Source: Gammaproteobacteria bacterium
GTDB lineage: Bacteria > Pseudomonadota > Gammaproteobacteria > Enterobacterales > GCA-2746155
NCBI GenBank assembly: GCA_002746155.1
Contig: NVWF01000003.1
Location: forward strand, 39,894 to 77,163
Length of the DNA: 37,270 nt
Direction of reading: 5' to 3'
The number at the start of each line of letters is the position of its first letter. The first letter of the stretch is position 1. Under the pieces are notes generated by a model. That model was not told the origin of the DNA. It did not search any database and worked only from the letters and a program-made list of their open reading frames with translations. The position numbers were made by a program, and so were the translations under genes. This document shows, in pieces, positions 11,378 to 37,270 of the stretch.

Positions 11378-12895
11378 TTAACTGGCACTACAGTGCTTTG
11401 TTATAAACTCGGCATGTGTCGGCATTTTCTTGCTGCACAAGCGAACAACTTCCTTCATTTTAGAGAGTTGAATGTGTAGATTTTCAGTTGAGGTATTATC
11501 TACTAATGGATGGTAACTCTGGGGAATTATCCCTTGCCCCGACAATACTGATAACCAACTGAGTTCAGCAAAAAGCTCATTATTTTCTCTGAATACTCTA
11601 CCATTGGTTTTGTAAAGTTCTATTTTTGATTGAAGGGTATCTGGAATGCTCATCTCTTTGCAATACTTCCAGAAAGGACTATCCTCTCGTGTAGTTAACT
11701 TGTAGTGTAAAACAATAAAGTCGCGGATCTGCTTCAATTCAATGTCCGCATTTTCATTAAAAATATCAATATCTTTTTGTTGAAATGACTTGTTTGGAAA
11801 CAAGCTGAGTAATCGTTCTATTGATGCCTGAATCAATTGTAATCCTGTGGATTCCAATGGCTCTATGAAGCCTCCAGATAATCCAATCGCGACACAATTC
11901 TTAACCCACAGTTTTTTCCTTTTACCATTTGTCCACTTTAGGAAGTTTGGCTCACCCATTGGTTTGCTCGGAAGATTCGAAAATAATGTGGTTAGTGCAT
12001 CATCCTGATTGAGAAAGTCAGAAGAATAAACATGACCGTTGCCGATTCTATTCTGTAGTGGGATCTGCCACTGCCACCCAGACTTTTGTGCCGTTGAAAT
12101 AGTATATGGTTTTTTGTCAGGAAGAGATTCACTAGCATGGGCAATAGCACTGTTGCATGGTAACCATTGGCTCCAGTCTTCAAAAGGACTTTCCATTACT
12201 CCGTCAATTAAAAGACCTTTAAATCCTGTACAGTCTATAAATAAGTCACCATTAATCAAAGCGCCATTCTCTAATAATAAAGACTCAATAAATCCGGTTT
12301 CATTATTGGTATTTATTTGAGTTACGATACCTTCTATACGACTAGCTCCCAGTTTTTCAGAGTAGGTTCTTAAATACGCTGCATAAAGAGTAGCATCAAA
12401 GTGGAAGGCGTAATTAACACTAGTTAGAGGAGTATTCGGATAATTTAAAGGGCGTGAAAACAAATTTTTCTTTGCTGCATAACCTTCAAGACAATAATCT
12501 AGCAAATCATCTTTTGGCTGAATCTTTTGGCTCTTAAGCCAATAATGATGGAAGGGCACACCATGCATATTGGTTCCATATGCACCAAATGGATGCATAT
12601 AGGAATGTCCCATTTCCTTCCAATTTACAAATTCAATGCCTAATTTAAATGTCCCGTGGGTATGTTTTAAAAAGTCATCCTCGTCAATTTCTAACAACGA
12701 GTTAAAAGCGCGAATATGGGGAATGGTAGCCTCGCCCACTGAAACGGTGCCAATAGTATCCGATTCGATAACTGTTATTGAATAATTATTACATCCCAAT
12801 ACTTTTGTTAATGCTGCCGCTGTCATCCATCCAGCTGAACCGCCACCAACAATAATTATCTGTTTTAATGCTTCAACTTCGCTTTGATTGATCAT
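11378..12895 (-). CDS. Flavin-dependent tryptophan-halogenase-like protein (copy A)
   Basis: The 505-residue protein carries the halogenase family motifs: the dinucleotide site GGGSAGWMTAA, VGEATIP, the Lys of TFKLGIEF at the position of the catalytic Lys, WQWQIP (WxWxIP) and FIEPLESTG with the Glu-Ser pair of tryptophan halogenases. The frame extends to a TTG at 12907, but an ATG at 12895 with GGGGA five bases ahead is the better start. It lies directly downstream of the TonB-dependent receptor gene on the same strand, across a terminator. Such proteins recur beside carbohydrate receptors in proteobacteria and their real substrate there is unknown; halogenation of free tryptophan should not be assumed. 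A paralogue pair is at 30635-33669. Confidence 0.9.
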   Translation of the reverse strand: MINQSEVEALKQIIIVGGGSAGWMTAAALTKVLGCNNYSITVIESDTIGTVSVGEATIPHIRAFNSLLEIDEDDFLKHTHGTFKLGIEFVNWKEMGHSYMHPFGAYGTNMHGVPFHHYWLKSQKIQPKDDLLDYCLEGYAAKKNLFSRPLNYPNTPLTSVNYAFHFDATLYAAYLRTYSEKLGASRIEGIVTQINTNNETGFIESLLLENGALINGDLFIDCTGFKGLLIDGVMESPFEDWSQWLPCNSAIAHASESLPDKKPYTISTAQKSGWQWQIPLQNRIGNGHVYSSDFLNQDDALTTLFSNLPSKPMGEPNFLKWTNGKRKKLWVKNCVAIGLSGGFIEPLESTGLQLIQASIERLLSLFPNKSFQQKDIDIFNENADIELKQIRDFIVLHYKLTTREDSPFWKYCKEMSIPDTLQSKIELYKTNGRVFRENNELFAELSWLSVLSGQGIIPQSYHPLVDNTSTENLHIQLSKMKEVVRLCSKKMPTHAEFITKHCSAS

Positions 12896-12947
12896 ACAGA
12901 TCCCCAAAATACCTAGACTATTTTAAGTAAAAATTTACAATATACAC

Positions 12948-12996: not shown

Positions 12997-15855
12997 CTAG
13001 TAGAATTTATATTCCACTAGGAATGTAAAAGCTCGTCCTCTTGGATCTGCAACTCGTGGATCGAATGCTGCTCCAGGAGAAAAATCATTTTGATGCGCTG
13101 TAAATGATGGATCTTGATCCAGTAAGTTTTTGATACCGAATCTTATATCAAAATTATCAAGAGCGTAATAGGCTACACTGTAGTTATAGGTAGTATAGCT
13201 ATCAACAACCGGATCAAAATTAGGTACTACAGCTGCTCCTGAAGCAATTCCAGCAGGAACTTCATCTAGATAACTATCCCTGAACACCTGAGTTAGAGAA
13301 TGACTCCAATCAGCGATTTGATAACTGAAAGTTAAGGTATGCTTCCATTCCAGTGGGATTGTTCCTCTGGAATGTGTACCTACACGGTTCTCACCAAAAG
13401 GCTCACTATCATCCAGCTTTACCTTATCCGTAATTAAGAAACTACCATTAAAGTCTAATTTCCAACTTCCTGCACCTAGCTCACCACTGGTCCGAAATCC
13501 TACTTCTACACCACTGGTGTCACGTTCACCTGCGTTGATAAAGCGTCTATCAACAGCAACGATTTCGCCACTTGCGTCACGAATGAAATTAGCACTATAG
13601 AGGTCATAGTTTTGAATCAAACGGTCAAAGCTTGTTGTCTGGATGGTGCCTTCTTTTAGGATTTGCCACCAATCCATGTTCAAGCTCGTTTCATCGTTGA
13701 ATTCCCAAACAAAACCCACACTTGATTGTTTAGATTCTTCCGGATCCAGATCCTCTTTACCACCAAAAATACTTACCGGTTGAAGCGGTTCGCAGGCGGG
13801 GTTGCCTGGCTGTGGAATACCTCCATCACAAACTGCCGGATCTGCAAAATCCAAGCCTGTGTAGGGCTGCTCTGAAATACCATTATAAAGTTGGTTAAAT
13901 GAAGGTACTCGGAAACCAGTACTAAATCCACCACGAATCAATAGAGATTCGCTTGGAGTATACTTAAACCCAATTTTCGGATTTGTAGTACCACCAAAGC
14001 CGCTATAATTATCATAGCGAATGGCTAAATTAAGCTCCAGATTAGGTAGCACTGGTAATAATGCTTCTGCAAAAACCGCAGAAATATCACGGCTCACATT
14101 CTCAAGGGCATTGCTATCATCAAAAGGAGCTCCATAGATTCTTTCGCGATCTGCTGCAGCACGTCTGTCACCATTAAACTTATATTCTTCTCTACGTAAG
14201 TCAAAACCAGTAGCAACCGCAATCGAACCGCCACTTAACTCATAATCTAACTCAGTAGTAAATGAACCATCTATTTGGGTTAGAATGGTTTCTCCACCAA
14301 AAAGTATTACCCCTCTGGCAGAAGCCGCTTCCAGACCAGATATAGCTGCAGCAGTTTGAGATTCGCCAGGTAACAAGAATGGATTCAACGTGCCACTTCC
14401 AAATAATCCAGCCAGACCGGACGTATAATGATAGCCATCACCAAGTTCTGACTCTGATTCACTCGAAGCGCGAGATATACCTGCAGTATAATCCCAGTCG
14501 CCAATTACACCATCCATACCAAATAGAATCCTACTTGCTTCTGTTGTAGTATTAATTTCACGGGGGCCACAAGCTATACAACGCCAACGGAAAGCGATAG
14601 GTGCGCCGATGTTAAGTTGGTCAGCGCCGTAAAAATCAGAAAGTGCGTCGACAACATAATCATAGGAGGCACCAGTACTAGGATACCAGTTACCATAAAA
14701 GTTCCAGGGCGTCATTTGATTAGGTTCAAAGACTTTTCTCGACTCGACTTTTGATGCAACTATTTCTACATAAGCTTCAGATAAATCACCTACCTTGAAA
14801 GTAGCACGAGAAACGAAATCTGTTTTATCTACCGGTTGTTGCAATGCTGACGCTCGAGGATAGTCCCATGCACAACTGACAGTTTCATTAGGACGATTCC
14901 ATAATGCGCCTGTATCAACGCCCATGTCCGGGTAGATATCACAACCAGGTTGGCCTGGTAGTGCCATAATGTTTAATACTGAGTTTTCTAGACCAGTTAA
15001 CGGATTGATAAGACCATTACCAATCAAATTCCAATGTCTATTGGTTGGGTCATTTCCAAAGAATCGATCATTTAGAGACGCAAAGGGAGTACCCCGCGTA
15101 TCAGGAGATAATCCTCTGTCTGGCTGAAACGTTGATGTGAAGGGCCTATCAGATCCACGAAGTATTTGATTTTCCTTCAATGAAATTGTGGCCATCACGT
15201 TATAGCCATCGGTATTTAAATCTCCGAATCCACCCATGAGGTTATAACGGAAGATATCGCCACCGCCCGCGTCTGTTATATCAGCAAAAGCAGATGCACT
15301 GATTCCTTCAAAGTCCTTTTTTAAAATAAAGTTAATAACTCCACCAATTGCATCCGTACCATAAACAGCTGATGCACCATCTCTCAATACTTCGACCCTT
15401 TCAATCGCGGAAAATGGAATAGAGTTCAAATCAACTGAACGACCTTTCATGCCATGGGTGGCAATACGTCGACCATTTAAAAGAACCAAGGTTGAACCCG
15501 GTCCCTGGCCACGTAAATCTGCACTTGATGCACCATTATTACCCCTTTCAGTACCACCAACGATTCCTGCATTACTAGCAAGGTTTAAACTACCGTTGGA
15601 ATTTATATTTAATTGCAGCATCATTTGTTCAGCACTAGTGATGCCCTGCTTCGTCAGATCTTCCAGTGTGAATGTTGTAATTGGTAGCGAGCCTTCGGCA
15701 TCTGTTCTCTTGATTCTTGAGCCGGTGACGATTACTTTATTTTCATCATCATCTGCCTGATCTTCTTCTGCTGCTTGTACCATCGGCAGCACTAAACCCT
15801 GAGTGAGAGCTCCGGCAACCACCAAAGCAATTTTGGAAAACTTGATATATTTCAT
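12997..15855 (-). CDS. TonB-dependent outer-membrane receptor
   Basis: The receptor imports a bulky ligand through the outer membrane using TonB energy. The frame begins at 15873, but the ATG at 15855 is preceded by AGGGG (15863-15867 on the plus strand), giving 952 residues with a clear signal peptide (MKYIKFSK, cleavage near VQAAEE). The plug starts with VIVTGSRIKRTDAEG, followed by LVLLNGRR and VERVEVLRDGASAVYGTDAIGG (plug signature), and the barrel ends in an aromatic strand (VEYKFY). There is no N-terminal signalling domain. A Cys pair in a long extracellular-type loop (CDIYPDMG, CAWDY) may form a disulfide. Its place opposite the muropeptide operon suggests wall fragments or amino-sugar oligomers as ligand; this is inference only. 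Confidence 0.95.
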   Translation of the reverse strand: MKYIKFSKIALVVAGALTQGLVLPMVQAAEEDQADDDENKVIVTGSRIKRTDAEGSLPITTFTLEDLTKQGITSAEQMMLQLNINSNGSLNLASNAGIVGGTERGNNGASSADLRGQGPGSTLVLLNGRRIATHGMKGRSVDLNSIPFSAIERVEVLRDGASAVYGTDAIGGVINFILKKDFEGISASAFADITDAGGGDIFRYNLMGGFGDLNTDGYNVMATISLKENQILRGSDRPFTSTFQPDRGLSPDTRGTPFASLNDRFFGNDPTNRHWNLIGNGLINPLTGLENSVLNIMALPGQPGCDIYPDMGVDTGALWNRPNETVSCAWDYPRASALQQPVDKTDFVSRATFKVGDLSEAYVEIVASKVESRKVFEPNQMTPWNFYGNWYPSTGASYDYVVDALSDFYGADQLNIGAPIAFRWRCIACGPREINTTTEASRILFGMDGVIGDWDYTAGISRASSESESELGDGYHYTSGLAGLFGSGTLNPFLLPGESQTAAAISGLEAASARGVILFGGETILTQIDGSFTTELDYELSGGSIAVATGFDLRREEYKFNGDRRAAADRERIYGAPFDDSNALENVSRDISAVFAEALLPVLPNLELNLAIRYDNYSGFGGTTNPKIGFKYTPSESLLIRGGFSTGFRVPSFNQLYNGISEQPYTGLDFADPAVCDGGIPQPGNPACEPLQPVSIFGGKEDLDPEESKQSSVGFVWEFNDETSLNMDWWQILKEGTIQTTSFDRLIQNYDLYSANFIRDASGEIVAVDRRFINAGERDTSGVEVGFRTSGELGAGSWKLDFNGSFLITDKVKLDDSEPFGENRVGTHSRGTIPLEWKHTLTFSYQIADWSHSLTQVFRDSYLDEVPAGIASGAAVVPNFDPVVDSYTTYNYSVAYYALDNFDIRFGIKNLLDQDPSFTAHQNDFSPGAAFDPRVADPRGRAFTFLVEYKFY

Positions 15856-16001
15856 TTTTAATCCCCTGTACATTTTGATAATTTATATAAACTTACTATC
15901 CCATTTATCATTTAAGCTATACCAAACAATTTTTCTTGAATTCAGCACAGCACTTCTAAATATGCTAATGTGTTATTAAATCCCCATGTTTTTCTGATCT
16001 T

Positions 16002-30634: not shown

Positions 30635-32137
30635 ATGCAAAATAACCCTATCAAAAATATCGTGATTGTTGGCGGAGGTACAGCCGGTTGGATGACAGCT
30701 GCTGCCTTATCTCGCTATCTTCCACCTAAAGATTACACCATCAAACTGATCGAATCTGACCAAATTGGTACAATTGGTGTCGGCGAAGCAACTATTCCTG
30801 GCATTAGAGATTTCAACAATAAACTAGGTATCGATGAAAATGAATTTATGCGAGCGACCAAAGCGACCTATAAATTAGGAATTGAGTTTATTGACTGGAC
30901 TAAAAAAGGACATGCCTATGTTCATCCCTTTAGTTATTTTGGGCATGATTTAAATGGTGTGCCTTTTCACAACTATTGGTTAAAACAAAAACAACTCGGT
31001 GATACGACCAATATAAGTGAATATTCAATTGGTTATACAGCTGCAAAACTTAACAAATTTTCACATCCTACTAGCGACCAAAAATCAGTGCTTTCAAAAT
31101 TTTTCTACGCGTTTCATTTAGACGCAACGTTGTATGCAAACTATTTGAGAAAATTCTCAAGCAAGGCTGGCGTGGAGAGAATCGAAGGAAAAGTCATTAA
31201 TGTATCGACTAGAAAATCAGACGGTTTTATCGAAAAATTAACATTAGAAAGTGGACAAACTATTCAAGGCGACTTGTTTATTGATTGCAGTGGATTTCGA
31301 GGCTTACTCATTGAGCAAACGCTTAAAACAGGTTATCAGGATTGGTCTCATTGGTTACCTTGCGACCGAGCTATTGCTGTTCAAACTGTCAGTACTGAAG
31401 ATGCCATCCCTTATACTAAAGCAACTGCCCGAGAGGCTGGCTGGCAGTGGAAGATCCCCTTACAAAGTAGAGTTGGTAACGGTTACGTTTATTCCAGTCA
31501 ATATATCTCCGATGAACAAGCAAAACAAACGCTGCTTAGTAATATTGAAGGAGAGATGATTACAGAACCAAAGTTCATTCCTTTTAAAGCCGGAAAGCGC
31601 AACAAACTTTGGAATAGGAATTGTGTTGCAATCGGTTTATCCAGTGGATTTTTAGAACCTCTGGAATCAACCAGTATTCACCTGATACAAACGAGCATTA
31701 TGAAACTGATTACTCACTTTCCAGATCAGGCATTTAATCCTGTTGATATTCAAGATTACAATAATCAAATGAATAGACAGTTCGAGCAAGTCAAAGATTT
31801 TTTAATATTACATTATAAAACAACTCAACGAGATGACTCGCCTTTTTGGAAGTATTGCAAATCTATGGCAATTCCTAAGGAATTAGAGCATCGAATAAAT
31901 TTGTTTATCGAAACCGGCCATATTGTTAATTGTGAAAAAGAAGTTTTTGTTTATAGTAACTGGGCAGCCGTTTTATTGGGGCAAGAATTGTTTCCTAAGG
32001 TCTATCATCCGAGAGTAGACTGCATCAACCCAGAGCAACTTAAAATCCTACTTGCTCAGATGAAACTAACCATCGCCAAAAGCGTTTCTACTATGCCTAG
32101 CCATCTAGAAACGATTAACCGTTTTTGTAAAGCCTAA
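30635..32137 (+). CDS. Flavin-dependent tryptophan-halogenase-like protein (copy B)
   Basis: At 500 residues it has every halogenase hallmark: GGGTAGWMTAA at the flavin site, GVGEATIPG, the Lys of TYKLGIEF, WQWKIP and FLEPLESTS with the Glu-Ser pair. It clearly resembles copy A at 11378-12895 along its whole length. No receptor gene is next to it, unlike copy A. Its stop TAA shares one base with the ATG of copy C (TAATG), so the two should be translated together. Substrate is unknown; no non-ribosomal peptide or polyketide genes are around to supply one. Confidence 0.9.
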   Translation: MQNNPIKNIVIVGGGTAGWMTAAALSRYLPPKDYTIKLIESDQIGTIGVGEATIPGIRDFNNKLGIDENEFMRATKATYKLGIEFIDWTKKGHAYVHPFSYFGHDLNGVPFHNYWLKQKQLGDTTNISEYSIGYTAAKLNKFSHPTSDQKSVLSKFFYAFHLDATLYANYLRKFSSKAGVERIEGKVINVSTRKSDGFIEKLTLESGQTIQGDLFIDCSGFRGLLIEQTLKTGYQDWSHWLPCDRAIAVQTVSTEDAIPYTKATAREAGWQWKIPLQSRVGNGYVYSSQYISDEQAKQTLLSNIEGEMITEPKFIPFKAGKRNKLWNRNCVAIGLSSGFLEPLESTSIHLIQTSIMKLITHFPDQAFNPVDIQDYNNQMNRQFEQVKDFLILHYKTTQRDDSPFWKYCKSMAIPKELEHRINLFIETGHIVNCEKEVFVYSNWAAVLLGQELFPKVYHPRVDCINPEQLKILLAQMKLTIAKSVSTMPSHLETINRFCKA

Positions 32138-33669
32138 TGAATAACCTGAATTCAAGTAAAAATAGAATTCAAAATATAGTCATTATTGGTGGCAATACCA
32201 CCGGCTGGACTGTGGCAATGGCACTTGCTACCAGCCTAAAAGGATTGGATCTGTTCATCAGTGTAATTGACATTAATAAACACGAACAATCAACAAAGGT
32301 TGAATCAAGCCTCACCTCATCCAATCTGTTTTTTCAAACTTATGGTTTTAATTTACAAGAACTAATGAAAGAAACAAATGCCAGTTTTAAGCTCGGAACT
32401 GAGTTTTCGGATTGGACCACTATTGCAAAAAAATGGTTTCATCCTCATGGACAACAGGCAGGAAAAAACGGTTTCTTCGACTTGCATAGTCTAGCATTAA
32501 AACTCAAACAACTCGGCGAGAAAAATGCCTTTAATGAACATTCCTTGTCAGCAATGGCCGCTGACAAGGGCAAATTTTGTTTACCAACACCTCAACAAAA
32601 TCCGATTCTTTCAGCGCTAGGTTTTTCATTAAATTTTGATGCCTCTCGTTATCTAAACTATCTAAAAAATAGAGCGATAACTCTAGGCGTTAATAAATTA
32701 GAAGGTGATATATCTCATATCAATCAGTCTGAAGATGATTTTATTAGCGATATTACTTTAGATGACGGGCAAAAAATTAATGGTGATTTTTTCATTGATT
32801 GCAGTGGAACTGATGCTGTAGTTATAGGTAAACAGCTAGACATTGAATATATCAATTGGTCAAAAGATATTCCCTGCGATAGAGTTATTTCTGCGACATT
32901 CAAGTATTCTGCTGATGAAAAAATTCAACCCTATTCGGAAATATTAGCCTTGGCTAATGGATATTTAAAAACGACCTATCTCCAAGGTTTAATTGTAAGA
33001 AAATATATCTATTCGAGTAAGCATGATAGCGAAGTAAATGCTAAGCATATTCTGACTCAGCAAAATGCCCATCAACTAATAGAAATCAATGAATCTAGCA
33101 TTATAAAGCTCGGAAGAAGAGAATCTCCATGGGTCAAAAATTGTCTGGCTATTGGTCGTTCTGCTGGAGAGATTGATCCCCTACAGGTGGAAAGCATGCA
33201 CCTCGTTCATATGGCCATCAAACGATTTATCGAACTCTATCCAACGCATAAAAGCTCTATTAATTCCGTAGAATATAATCGTCTGACCCGACGAGAAATT
33301 GAGCTAGCAAAGGAATATCATTTGCTTCAATACTCATTATCCATGCGTGATGACAGTGCTTTTTGGAGAAGCTGCCAAGATTTGGAATTACCGATAAACT
33401 TAGTGCAAGCAATTCAGTTATTCAAGAGTCACGGTCGACAGCCTATGTATGATGAGGGATTAATTACCCGACATAATTGGATTTCAACTTTTATAGGAAA
33501 TTCGATCTGGCCCGATAATACACATCCCTTAGTCAACGCTTTACAAATTAATCACGTTTCAAAACAATTAAGCAACATGAGAAATGAAATAAAAGCTACC
33601 GTTAAGTCTATGCCAGAACACCAGCAATTTATTGATAGTTTTTGTTCTTCAAGAAATATACTTAAATAA
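32137..33669 (+). CDS. Degenerate tryptophan-halogenase-like paralogue (copy C)
   Basis: The 510-residue protein aligns with copies A and B from end to end but has lost the working parts: the flavin loop reads GGNTTGW instead of GGGxAGW, GVGEATIP is replaced by unrelated residues, WxWxIP is absent (TTYLQGL at that place), and EPLEST has become DPLQVES, removing the catalytic-type Glu-Ser pair. The Lys of SFKLGTEF remains. The frame is intact over 1.5 kb, so it is kept as a protein, not a decaying gene. Overlap with copy B suggests a partner subunit without catalysis. A changed but active flavoenzyme is the alternative. Confidence 0.82.
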   Translation: MNNLNSSKNRIQNIVIIGGNTTGWTVAMALATSLKGLDLFISVIDINKHEQSTKVESSLTSSNLFFQTYGFNLQELMKETNASFKLGTEFSDWTTIAKKWFHPHGQQAGKNGFFDLHSLALKLKQLGEKNAFNEHSLSAMAADKGKFCLPTPQQNPILSALGFSLNFDASRYLNYLKNRAITLGVNKLEGDISHINQSEDDFISDITLDDGQKINGDFFIDCSGTDAVVIGKQLDIEYINWSKDIPCDRVISATFKYSADEKIQPYSEILALANGYLKTTYLQGLIVRKYIYSSKHDSEVNAKHILTQQNAHQLIEINESSIIKLGRRESPWVKNCLAIGRSAGEIDPLQVESMHLVHMAIKRFIELYPTHKSSINSVEYNRLTRREIELAKEYHLLQYSLSMRDDSAFWRSCQDLELPINLVQAIQLFKSHGRQPMYDEGLITRHNWISTFIGNSIWPDNTHPLVNALQINHVSKQLSNMRNEIKATVKSMPEHQQFIDSFCSSRNILK

Positions 33670-33759: not shown

Positions 33760-33890
33760 GAGCCACCTTGTGATTAATCGTACTTAACTCACGATAGATC
33801 TCAAAAGTTTTAACTTCAACTGTAATAAAAACAATAGATAACCTACTAACCCATTTAAATCTATTTAACTTCATGATCAAGGAAAATATT

Positions 33891-34598
33891 ATGAGTGAAG
33901 CACCTACTAGCATGACAATAATGACTAACATTTTTACCAACCCCCAAACCGTCTTCGATGAGATAAAAGTAAAATACCCAGTGTTGTTACCTTTTTTTAC
34001 TGTATTTATATTACAAGCAGCACTTGTAATACTTATGTACATGTCTCTAGATTACAAATGGTTTATTGATGAACTGATAGAAAGAGCTTCGACGGCTGAT
34101 ACCAGTCAAGAAGATATTGAGAATATGCGTAAAGGATTAGAGATGATGTCCGCAACTACAACAGGTCTCATTGGAGCTGTGTTTGCGAGCATATTTATTG
34201 CAGTTATGTACGCTGTAATGTCACTTTACTTAGTAATTGTCTCGGCAATTACCAATGATGGTATTAAATTTAAACAGTGGTTTTCATTAATTTCTTGGTG
34301 CTCCATGCCTTCAATTATAGGAATTTTAGCGGGCTTGGTTGTAGTGCTCAGTTCTAGCAATGGTCAAATTTTACCAGAATCGGTTAATCCACTTAGCTTA
34401 AACGAACTTTTCTTTGATATGGATCCTGCTAAAGGCCTTGGGGCTATGATGGCTGGTACCAGTATAACTACCCTCTGGACTTTTGCACTGATGGTCATGG
34501 GTTATTCTAAGTGGACAGGAAAAAGCACCGCAGTATCTGCCGGCATCATTGCAATTTTGTATGCTTTTTCCTACACCATTTGGTTTGCAATGGTTTAA
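33891..34598 (+). CDS. Yip1-domain membrane protein
   Basis: The frame opens at 33873, but AAGGA lies just before the ATG at 33891, giving 235 residues (MSEAPTSMTIM). About five membrane segments (LLPFFTVFILQAALVILMYM; GAVFASIFIAVMYAVMSLYL; SIIGILAGLVVVL; two near the C-terminus) and the N-terminal FTNPQTVFDEIK match bacterial Yip1-family proteins, whose function is unknown. It precedes the adaptor gene by 20 bases and probably belongs to the export operon, perhaps helping membrane assembly. Confidence 0.8.
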   Translation: MSEAPTSMTIMTNIFTNPQTVFDEIKVKYPVLLPFFTVFILQAALVILMYMSLDYKWFIDELIERASTADTSQEDIENMRKGLEMMSATTTGLIGAVFASIFIAVMYAVMSLYLVIVSAITNDGIKFKQWFSLISWCSMPSIIGILAGLVVVLSSSNGQILPESVNPLSLNELFFDMDPAKGLGAMMAGTSITTLWTFALMVMGYSKWTGKSTAVSAGIIAILYAFSYTIWFAMV

Positions 34599-34618
34599 TA
34601 AATATTTAGGGATAAACA

Positions 34619-35812
34619 ATGAAAAAAGGTCTTATTTTTGCCGTCATTTTAATACTGATTATTGGTATTCCTGTTCTGAAAAAGTATAGGGGTACCGACA
34701 AGACCAAGGCGGTTGAAGTTCAACAAGTTTCTATGAAAACCATTAAAGCTTCCATTCTTGCATCTGGGCAACTTAAGCATGAACATCAAGTAAAATTGAC
34801 TGCAGAAGTTATTGGCAAAATCAGTCGTCTTTATGTCAAGGAAGGTGACACCGTTAAAAAAGGTCAATTGGTTCTTGAAATTGATGATCAGACTTTTGTT
34901 GCTGCTGTTGAGCAACAAAAGGCAGCTGTGGATCAACAAAAAGTGTCCATCGAAAGGCATAAATTAGTGGTCATGAATGTTGCTAAACAGCTAAAACGAA
35001 AAAGAGAACTGTATAAACAAAAACTCATTGGTGAAGATGAATACGACACCATTAACCATCAATATAAAGTATCAGAGATAGATCTCAAGGGTGGCTATGA
35101 GTTGTTAAAACAAATTGAAGCCCGACTTGAACAGTCTAATGAACAACTATCTAAAACTAAAATTGAGTCACCAATTGATGGTGTTATCACCTCACTTGAT
35201 ATAAAAGAAGGTGAAACGGCTATATCAGGTACAACAAATATAGTGGGCTCAGGCCTCATGACCATTGCAGATCCGAATAGCATGTTGGCTGAGGTAAATG
35301 TTGATGAAGCGGATATTGCCCAGGTGAGCATTGGTCAGAAGGCTGAAATCATAGCCATCGCCTTCGCAGATCACCCTATCATAGGCATCGTAGAGTCTAT
35401 TGCTTCAAGTGCTAAAGCTGCGCCAGGACGAGGAACCCTAAGTTTTGCTGTAAAGCTGAACATTGAATCTTCTGATGCAATCAAACTATTACCAGGCATG
35501 AGTTGCCGTGCTGAGGTGTTCACTCAGGGTGAACAAAACCTATTAGCTATACCAATAAAAGCCATTAAAACTGATGAAGATAACGATGAAGACACTGTAG
35601 AGAATTATGTCTTTATCTTTGAAGCGGGTGTTGCTAAAAAAGTCACTGTTAAAACAGGTATTTCTGATGATACTTTCCAACACATTATTGAAGGTTTGGA
35701 AATTGGGGCGTCGGTTATTACAGGCCCAGACAAAATTATTCGTCATCTAAAAGACGGTGATTCAGTAGAAATAGCTGAAGCAAGTTCATCTGATGAAGAT
35801 GAAGATGACTGA
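34619..35812 (+). CDS. Periplasmic adaptor (membrane fusion) protein, HlyD/MacA type
   Basis: The 397-residue protein has one N-terminal membrane anchor ([16 protein letters not shown]), a lipoyl half-domain ([19 protein letters not shown]), a coiled coil (about residues 95-175, rich in Gln, Lys, Glu), the second lipoyl half ([19 protein letters not shown]) and beta-barrel parts. It links the inner-membrane ABC transporter to an outer-membrane channel. AGGGA precedes the ATG. The C-terminus is a strongly acidic tail (SSSDEDEDD) whose codons overlap the ATPase start region. Confidence 0.93.
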
Positions 35813-36530
35813 GCATCAAAATAAACCCATGGAATTGATCACATTACAGCATGTTTGTAAATATTACACTATGGGCGATCAAACAGTTAAGGCCCTAGAT
35901 CATATCGACCTGTCTATTTCGGCAAATGAGTATATTGCTTTTATCGGCACCTCTGGTTCAGGTAAATCAACCATGATGAATATACTGGGATGTCTTGATA
36001 AACCATCGGATGGAACTTATCTGCTAAATGGAACCGATGTATCATCCTTAACGGCAAATGAGCTCGCCAGAATCCGTAATCGGGAAATTGGCTTTATATT
36101 TCAAAGCTTTAATTTATTACCCAGAGCTACTGCCTTGCACAATGTAATGCTGCCTCTTGTTTACAAAGGTATAAAGTTTAGCGAGCGAAAGCGGCTTGCG
36201 ATAAAAGTCATGGAAAAAGTCAATCTATCCGACAGGATGGACCACATACCGAGTCAACTATCTGGAGGACAAAGGCAGAGAGTGGCAATTGCTCGAGCCT
36301 TAATTACCAATCCTTCAATATTGCTTGCTGACGAACCTACTGGAAATCTTGATACTCAAACCACCAAAGACATCATGGCTCTATTTGACCAGCTTCATAA
36401 TGAAGGGCAGACTATTATTGTGGTTACTCATGAAAAGGATATTGCAAATCATTGTCAGCGTGTGGTGACCTTAAGTGATGGTAAAGTTGTTAAAGACATA
36501 ATGAATAAGCGGGAGACTAGCAGTGTTTAG
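35793..36530 (+). CDS. ABC transporter ATPase, MacB/LolD type
   Basis: The 245-residue protein has Walker A ([12 protein letters not shown]), Q-loop (FQSFNLLP), signature [15 protein letters not shown], Walker B (ILLADEPTG) and the H-loop His (VVTHEKD), and belongs to the MacB/LolD/FtsE group. Unlike canonical MacB, ATPase and permease are separate genes. Starts at 35793, 35799, 35805 and 35829 are all in frame; the first three lie inside the adaptor's acidic-tail codons, and conserved sequence begins only at MELITLQHV (35829). It overlaps the adaptor gene by up to 20 bases. Confidence 0.95.
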
Positions 36531-37270
36531 TTTAATTGAAAGTTTTCGTAGTGCTATTAGTTCCATAAGAGCACATGGTTTCAGAAGCTTTTTGACAACC
36601 CTAGGTATTATTATTGGTGTTGCATCAACCATTGCCGTGGTTTCAGTAGTTCAAGGTTTGAGCCATTCAATCAACAAACAATTTGAGGGTTTTGGCTCTA
36701 ACTCAATTAGTATTCGATCCTACACACCTCGCTCGGAAAGACTTAAGGGAAAACTAGCAAGGATTACTGCTGAAGATGTTGAAATGATCCGCAAACGCGT
36801 TGAAGGTATAGAATACATAACCCCTCAGCTTGGTTCACAAGTTGGAGGCACCAGCGGCATTAAATACAAAGGCAATCAAGCTTTTTCTCAGGTTGCCGGC
36901 TCTACCTATACTTATCAGAGCGTGCAAAATATTGACATGAAATATGGTCGATTTTTATCCTACAGCGATAATCAATCACGTAGAAAAGTAGTGGTTATTG
37001 GTGAAAAATTAAGAGAAGATCTTGAACTACCTGCTGATCCCGTTGGTGAATTCATTAATTTTGCTGGTGAGTGGTTAAAGATCATCGGCCTTGCCGATTC
37101 TAAAGGTTCTTTCTTTGGATTTAATCAGGATAATTTTGCTATCCTGCCCTACAACACCATGCAAAGTCTCAATGGTAATTTACAGGAACCTGACATTTTT
37201 GTGCAGTTGAATCTTAAGGATCCAAAGCAATTTGAAGACATTAAAGCTCATATTAAAAGGATCCTCAGAA
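36523..37270 (+). CDS. MacB-type ABC permease, C-terminus cut by window edge
   Basis: The frame starts with GTG at 36523, eight bases before the ATPase stop, preceded by GGGAG, and stays open to the edge (249 codons). It shows the MacB_PCD domain: a first membrane helix ([20 protein letters not shown]) after SIRAHGFRS, then the periplasmic domain ([27 protein letters not shown]). The FtsX-type membrane part should lie past the edge. With the adaptor and ATPase it forms a tripartite exporter, often for peptides, macrolides or lipids; cargo unknown. Confidence 0.93.

Follow-up and report, generated by a model that had tools for sequence, protein, structure and literature searches.

A motif-intact flavin-dependent halogenase and an overlapping motif-stripped homolog as probable subunits of a two-component enzyme

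The chemistry and fold of flavin-dependent halogenases are already known, as are enzyme-pseudoenzyme pairs in other families (PMC5201418). Halogenases of the PF04820 family such as PrnA, RebH and PyrH are dimers of identical active chains, and crystals of tryptophan halogenases have one dimer in common (PMC7336383). In PrnA, residue E346 is essential to orient and activate HOX (PMC5945002). BrvH (6frl, from Brevundimonas) and Xcc4156 (6y1w) act on indole and have been described and assayed as single enzymes; the native substrates of BrvH-type enzymes are unidentified, possibly peptides, though these enzymes are abundant and structurally known (PMC7336383). Among the pairs from other families, Trypanosoma S-adenosylmethionine decarboxylase and its prozyme consist of an active enzyme and a dead paralog, with the complex solved and activation shown (PMC5201418), and in Fam20A/Fam20C and other such pairs a pseudoenzyme partners an active paralog (PMC5865150, PMC10211241). 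We found no report in the open-access literature searched of a pseudoenzyme or inactive-homolog pair among flavin-dependent halogenases, in agreement with an earlier note on this DNA, which knew of no such pair for tryptophan halogenases.

Here we compare these systems with two adjacent genes, B and C, in the window, by which we mean the entire 37,270-nucleotide stretch of gammaproteobacterial DNA that was analyzed (Table 1). ORF calling predicts proteins of 500 residues for B and 510 residues for C, which are 32% identical over 499 amino acids. The Trp_halogenase profile PF04820 (cut-off 21 bits) covers both proteins over its whole length, at 650 bits for B and 323 bits for C. B has the family profile, the GxGxxG loop, the active-site lysine, WxWxIP and the catalytic glutamate that characterize a flavin-dependent halogenase, and its closest solved structure is BrvH (E 3.6e-158), to which it is about 50% identical with all motifs present. 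The AlphaFold2 model of C (mean pLDDT 88) also has BrvH as its best solved match (TM 0.92), and C thus has both the profile score and the predicted fold expected of a family member; by prediction, the entire halogenase fold is present. C therefore resembles the dimer-forming enzymes PrnA, RebH and PyrH in fold and family profile, but differs from them, and from BrvH and Xcc4156, in lacking the halide-activating glutamate and motif residues including WxWxIP. The two genes meet at GCC TAATG, where one base is common to the stop codon of B and the start codon of C, as the earlier note had reported, and this overlap likely couples translation of C to that of B. The same note had described B as keeping GGGxAGW, GEATIP, WxWxIP and PLES and C as a full-length protein with a retained lysine motif, and both descriptions hold in our alignment.

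Table 1. Positions of the halogenase genes, their junction and the motif sites of C in the window
Feature	Coordinates	Strand	Basis
A: another intact halogenase, the third in the window, context outside the B-C pair	11378..12907	-	PF04820 609 bits, motifs intact
TonB-dependent receptor, with A behind it	12997-15873	-	
B: motif-intact BrvH-type flavin-dependent halogenase, putative catalytic subunit	30635..32137	+	PF04820 650 bits, five motifs, 6frl match
TAATG, where the stop codon of B overlaps the start codon of C	32135..32139	+	junction sequence GCCTAATGAAT
C: motif-stripped full-length halogenase homolog, putative non-catalytic subunit	32137..33669	+	PF04820 323 bits, motif table, AF2 model, tree placement with stripped homologs
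GGNTTGW replacing GGGTAGW in the FAD loop, C residues 18-24	32188..32208	+	alignment
VESSLT replacing GEATIP, C residues 55-60	32299..32316	+	alignment
KLGTEF, active-site Lys motif kept in C, Lys85	32389..32406	+	alignment
YLKTTY replacing WxWxIP, C residues 276-281	32962..32979	+	alignment
DPLQVES replacing EPLESTS, C residues 347-353, catalytic Glu to Gln350	33175..33195	+	alignment

Each of the five motifs of B has a counterpart in C: GGGTAGW is replaced by GGNTTGW, GEATIP by VESSLT, KLGIEF by KLGTEF, WQWKIP by YLKTTY and EPLES by DPLQV. Of the 17 near-invariant motif positions, C retains nine (G13, G14, G18, W19, E51, K80, F85, P342 and L343 in B numbering); G15, G50, P55 and both tryptophans and the isoleucine of WxWxIP are lost, E341 is changed to aspartate, and the catalytic E344 is changed to glutamine. 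In the FAD loop of C, the outer glycines of GxGxxG are present and the middle one is replaced by asparagine. As aligned, C is without the glutamate that orients and activates hypohalous acid (PrnA E346; Gln350 in C) and without the WxWxIP segment, while it keeps the active-site lysine (Lys85). The statement in the earlier note that C had lost all four motifs is accordingly correct for the residues that define function, namely both tryptophans of WxWxIP, the catalytic glutamate and the middle glycine of GxGxxG, and is slightly too strong for the motifs as a whole, because the active-site lysine and part of the FAD loop remain. The loss was not significantly concentrated in the motifs (9/17 motif positions kept versus 23/37 other near-invariant positions; Fisher p = 0.56), and selective loss there relative to other invariant positions is not supported. 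C has thus diverged broadly from its homologs, with changes that include catalytic positions but reach beyond the motifs.

As Lys85 and four residues of GGGxAGW are kept, C could still bind flavin or carry out another flavin reaction. It has been suggested that WxWxIP stops halogenases from acting as monooxygenases (PMC5945002), and, with its open frame and a full-length fold in the model, C could on this basis be a neofunctionalized flavoenzyme, such as an oxidase or a monooxygenase, that serves the same pathway after loss of WxWxIP and the halide-activating glutamate. We consider this unlikely, given the features of the stripped homologs described below.

The tandem position of C and its motif losses might also be those of a recent duplicate of B that is turning into a pseudogene. 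When we simulated unconstrained drift to a similar divergence, 15-28 in-frame stops accumulated, and no run was free of stops (0/300 per setting). Because drift always adds stops and the frame of C is open over 510 codons, chance or decay is excluded as an explanation of its present state. Furthermore, C and B share 32% identity, compared with 61% between B and the nearest intact relative that we found, which belongs to another family and is itself followed by an overlapping stripped gene, and no tree placed C together with B. Together with the purifying selection on stripped homologs, these results make a decaying duplicate highly improbable.

A scan of genome contigs using C alone revealed no close ortholog, and a class-level profile search yielded no clear new member of the C group. 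The source genome contains six PF04820 genes, among them a second intact/stripped pair, E-F, whose members lie 7 bases apart on another contig (C10; L193:11377-14419). In a genome from a different family of the same order, F has an ortholog with 43% identity that again comes right after an intact halogenase. We surveyed 100 halogenase loci from the order together with 80 named loci taken from a species-level genome collection, extracting all homologs and reading their motif positions as intact (i) or stripped (d). Among 350 homologs in about 180 loci, about 40 were stripped, and in 39 of 39 complete arrays the stripped gene immediately followed an intact one (idii, 16; idi, 11; id, 10; iid, 2), usually with a short overlap or a gap of a few bases. 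The three exceptions to this order involved contig ends or fragments. Many intact halogenases had no stripped gene next to them (134 single genes and 35 intact-intact tandems). The order of a working copy followed by a stripped one was found in many marine and soil bacteria, with hosts including Caulobacter, Sphingomonas, Erythrobacter, Asticcacaulis, Maricaulis, Aestuariibacter and Gilvimarinus. These counts may miss lone stripped genes elsewhere, because the loci were chosen around halogenase matches; a profile built from the trio-type stripped genes gives a biased measure of lone genes, since its strong matches are mostly indistinguishable from intact enzymes. The search for the pair in related genomes that the earlier note had proposed thus recovered the pair type and no close ortholog of C.

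The BrvH gene itself is part of an intact-intact tandem with a 4-nt overlap. We observed this in a 97% identical copy of the gene and its overlapping neighbor (L338:5673-8770); since that neighbor is an intact halogenase, we reject the idea that BrvH has a stripped one beside it. A natural partner may exist for the crystallized BrvH as well.

Close pairs of stripped genes had dN/dS values of 0.17-0.45, compared with 0.05-0.25 for the intact genes upstream of them. The stripped genes in related operons are therefore under purifying selection, with dN/dS well below 1, that is looser than on their intact partners. As the searches gave no close ortholog of C, the case for selection on C itself draws on its open frame and on these relatives, and of the substitution-rate analysis envisaged in the earlier note the part concerning C is limited to frame integrity. 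That note had named uniqueness of C to this genome together with neutral evolution as the outcome that would count against a partner role; at the level of the pair type neither applies, as there is a second pair, E-F, and stripped relatives are under purifying selection. Both features expected of an enzyme-pseudoenzyme pair, a linked partner in other genomes and purifying selection, are thus found in the stripped genes, with C itself judged by its frame.

The intact and stripped genes have been inherited together. Presence of a stripped gene behind the intact one, mapped on the intact-enzyme tree, changed 6 times, compared with a mean of 36 and a minimum of 31 in 200 shuffles of the labels. 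The intact partners mostly belonged to two clusters, with B and E together in one (13/15 tips). Distances among partners and among stripped genes were correlated (Mantel r 0.67, against at most 0.28 in permutations), and the stripped genes had diverged ~2.3x as much as their partners. This correlation shows joint inheritance but is not by itself evidence of contact. Branching also matched, with partners arranged as (B,I313) and ((E,I349),I340) and stripped genes as (C,P313) and ((F,P349),P340), where the B-I313 node is weak (0.03-0.31, FastTree SH values, as for all supports given here) and C-P313 was seen only in some trees. C grouped with stripped homologs. The stripped genes formed one clade when the motif columns were removed (SH 1.0) and also when the conserved columns were taken out in addition (SH 0.95), which may in part reflect long-branch attraction; in a tree without the other stripped genes, C was placed among intact enzymes with poor support.

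What the stripped homologs lose and keep bears on the proposal of a separate flavoenzyme. Across 37 of them, the catalytic glutamate was kept in 9%, the lysine in 19%, the second tryptophan of WxWxIP in 12%, the phenylalanine before the EPLES loop in 3%, and the glycine and glutamate of GEATIP in 28% and 21%. About 90% kept the first glycine of the FAD loop, Asp217, Gly220, Trp326, Asn329 and Asn376 (B numbering). Therefore, the scaffold appears to be kept and the halide and flavin site dismantled. No common replacement residue was seen at the lost catalytic positions, and some stripped homologs are shorter by about 150 amino acids; these short versions (about 345-368 amino acids) lie between intact genes in Erythrobacter-like genomes (L197, L203, L205 and L214), and the model of one has low confidence, yet is BrvH-like. 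The lack of a common replacement residue and the shortening argue against a new catalytic activity, as does the position of the stripped genes, which sit constantly behind an intact homolog and so point to a partner rather than a separate catalyst.

Many arrays adjoin a TonB-dependent receptor, and C might accordingly work on its own, binding or carrying the substrate or product of the TonB-linked uptake pathway, co-expressed with B and forming no complex with it. The receptor was found beside 23/29 named loci with a stripped gene and beside 33/51 without one, a link hardly stronger than in arrays lacking a stripped gene, and we regard its specificity for stripped arrays as unsupported. A carrier would also leave unexplained why stripped genes always come right after members of a single intact lineage, and we find this role still less probable than that of a flavoenzyme. 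The four-gene operon intact-stripped-intact-intact recurs, often adjoining a TonB receptor (L204, L210, L215, L230, L243, L256 and others).

Elsewhere in the window, positions 1007-27928 hold a peptidoglycan scavenging and recycling locus with halogenase A and the TonB-dependent receptor in its middle. Its enzymes are an LD-carboxypeptidase, an amidase, a D-Ala-D-Ala dipeptidase, an M19 dipeptidase, an NlpC/P60 protein and an epimerase-like enzyme, and its further genes encode a sodium symporter, NagK, MurQ, a MurR-like regulator and a NagX-like protein. This setting may hint at what the halogenase acts on, and, as A sits in a peptidoglycan-scavenging locus, muropeptide-like compounds would be reasonable first candidates. 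Directly 3' of C is a Yip1-HlyD-ABC-permease cassette (33873-37270); at L297, homologs of its first two genes (36% and 61%) lie about 8-12 kb from an intact/stripped pair.

From these analyses, we propose that B and C are probably the catalytic and non-catalytic subunits of an old, co-inherited two-component flavin-dependent halogenase. The recurrent, selected order of intact and stripped genes suggests two-part machines, and the earlier note's proposal of C as a non-catalytic partner or scaffold of B gains support at the sequence level from the E-F pair, the recurring order and the purifying selection on stripped relatives. As tryptophan halogenase crystals share one dimer, the simplest reading is that C would replace one protomer of this dimer to give a heterodimer with one active site. 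The altered surface of C, freed from catalysis, might then dock and orient a bulky substrate such as a peptide, glycopeptide or glycan fragment, or it might stabilize B. Such an effect on B would be analogous to the activation of a partner by a dead paralog in other enzyme families; the Trypanosoma decarboxylase and prozyme (PMC5201418) would share this working principle, but have an unrelated fold, and the complex and activation established there are inferred for B-C.

It is an evenly balanced judgment whether two-component flavin halogenases are widespread in Alpha- and Gammaproteobacteria, with the gene behind the catalytic one encoding an obligate pseudohalogenase subunit, often near a TonB receptor. 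If so, some of these halogenases would lack native laboratory substrates since they have been assayed without this subunit, and a conserved non-catalytic partner offers a testable reason why the substrates of some BrvH-type halogenases are unidentified. A route to the substrate would be to express the intact/stripped pair and not the single enzyme. If this proposal is true, a family that is important in biocatalysis would gain an enzyme-pseudoenzyme system.
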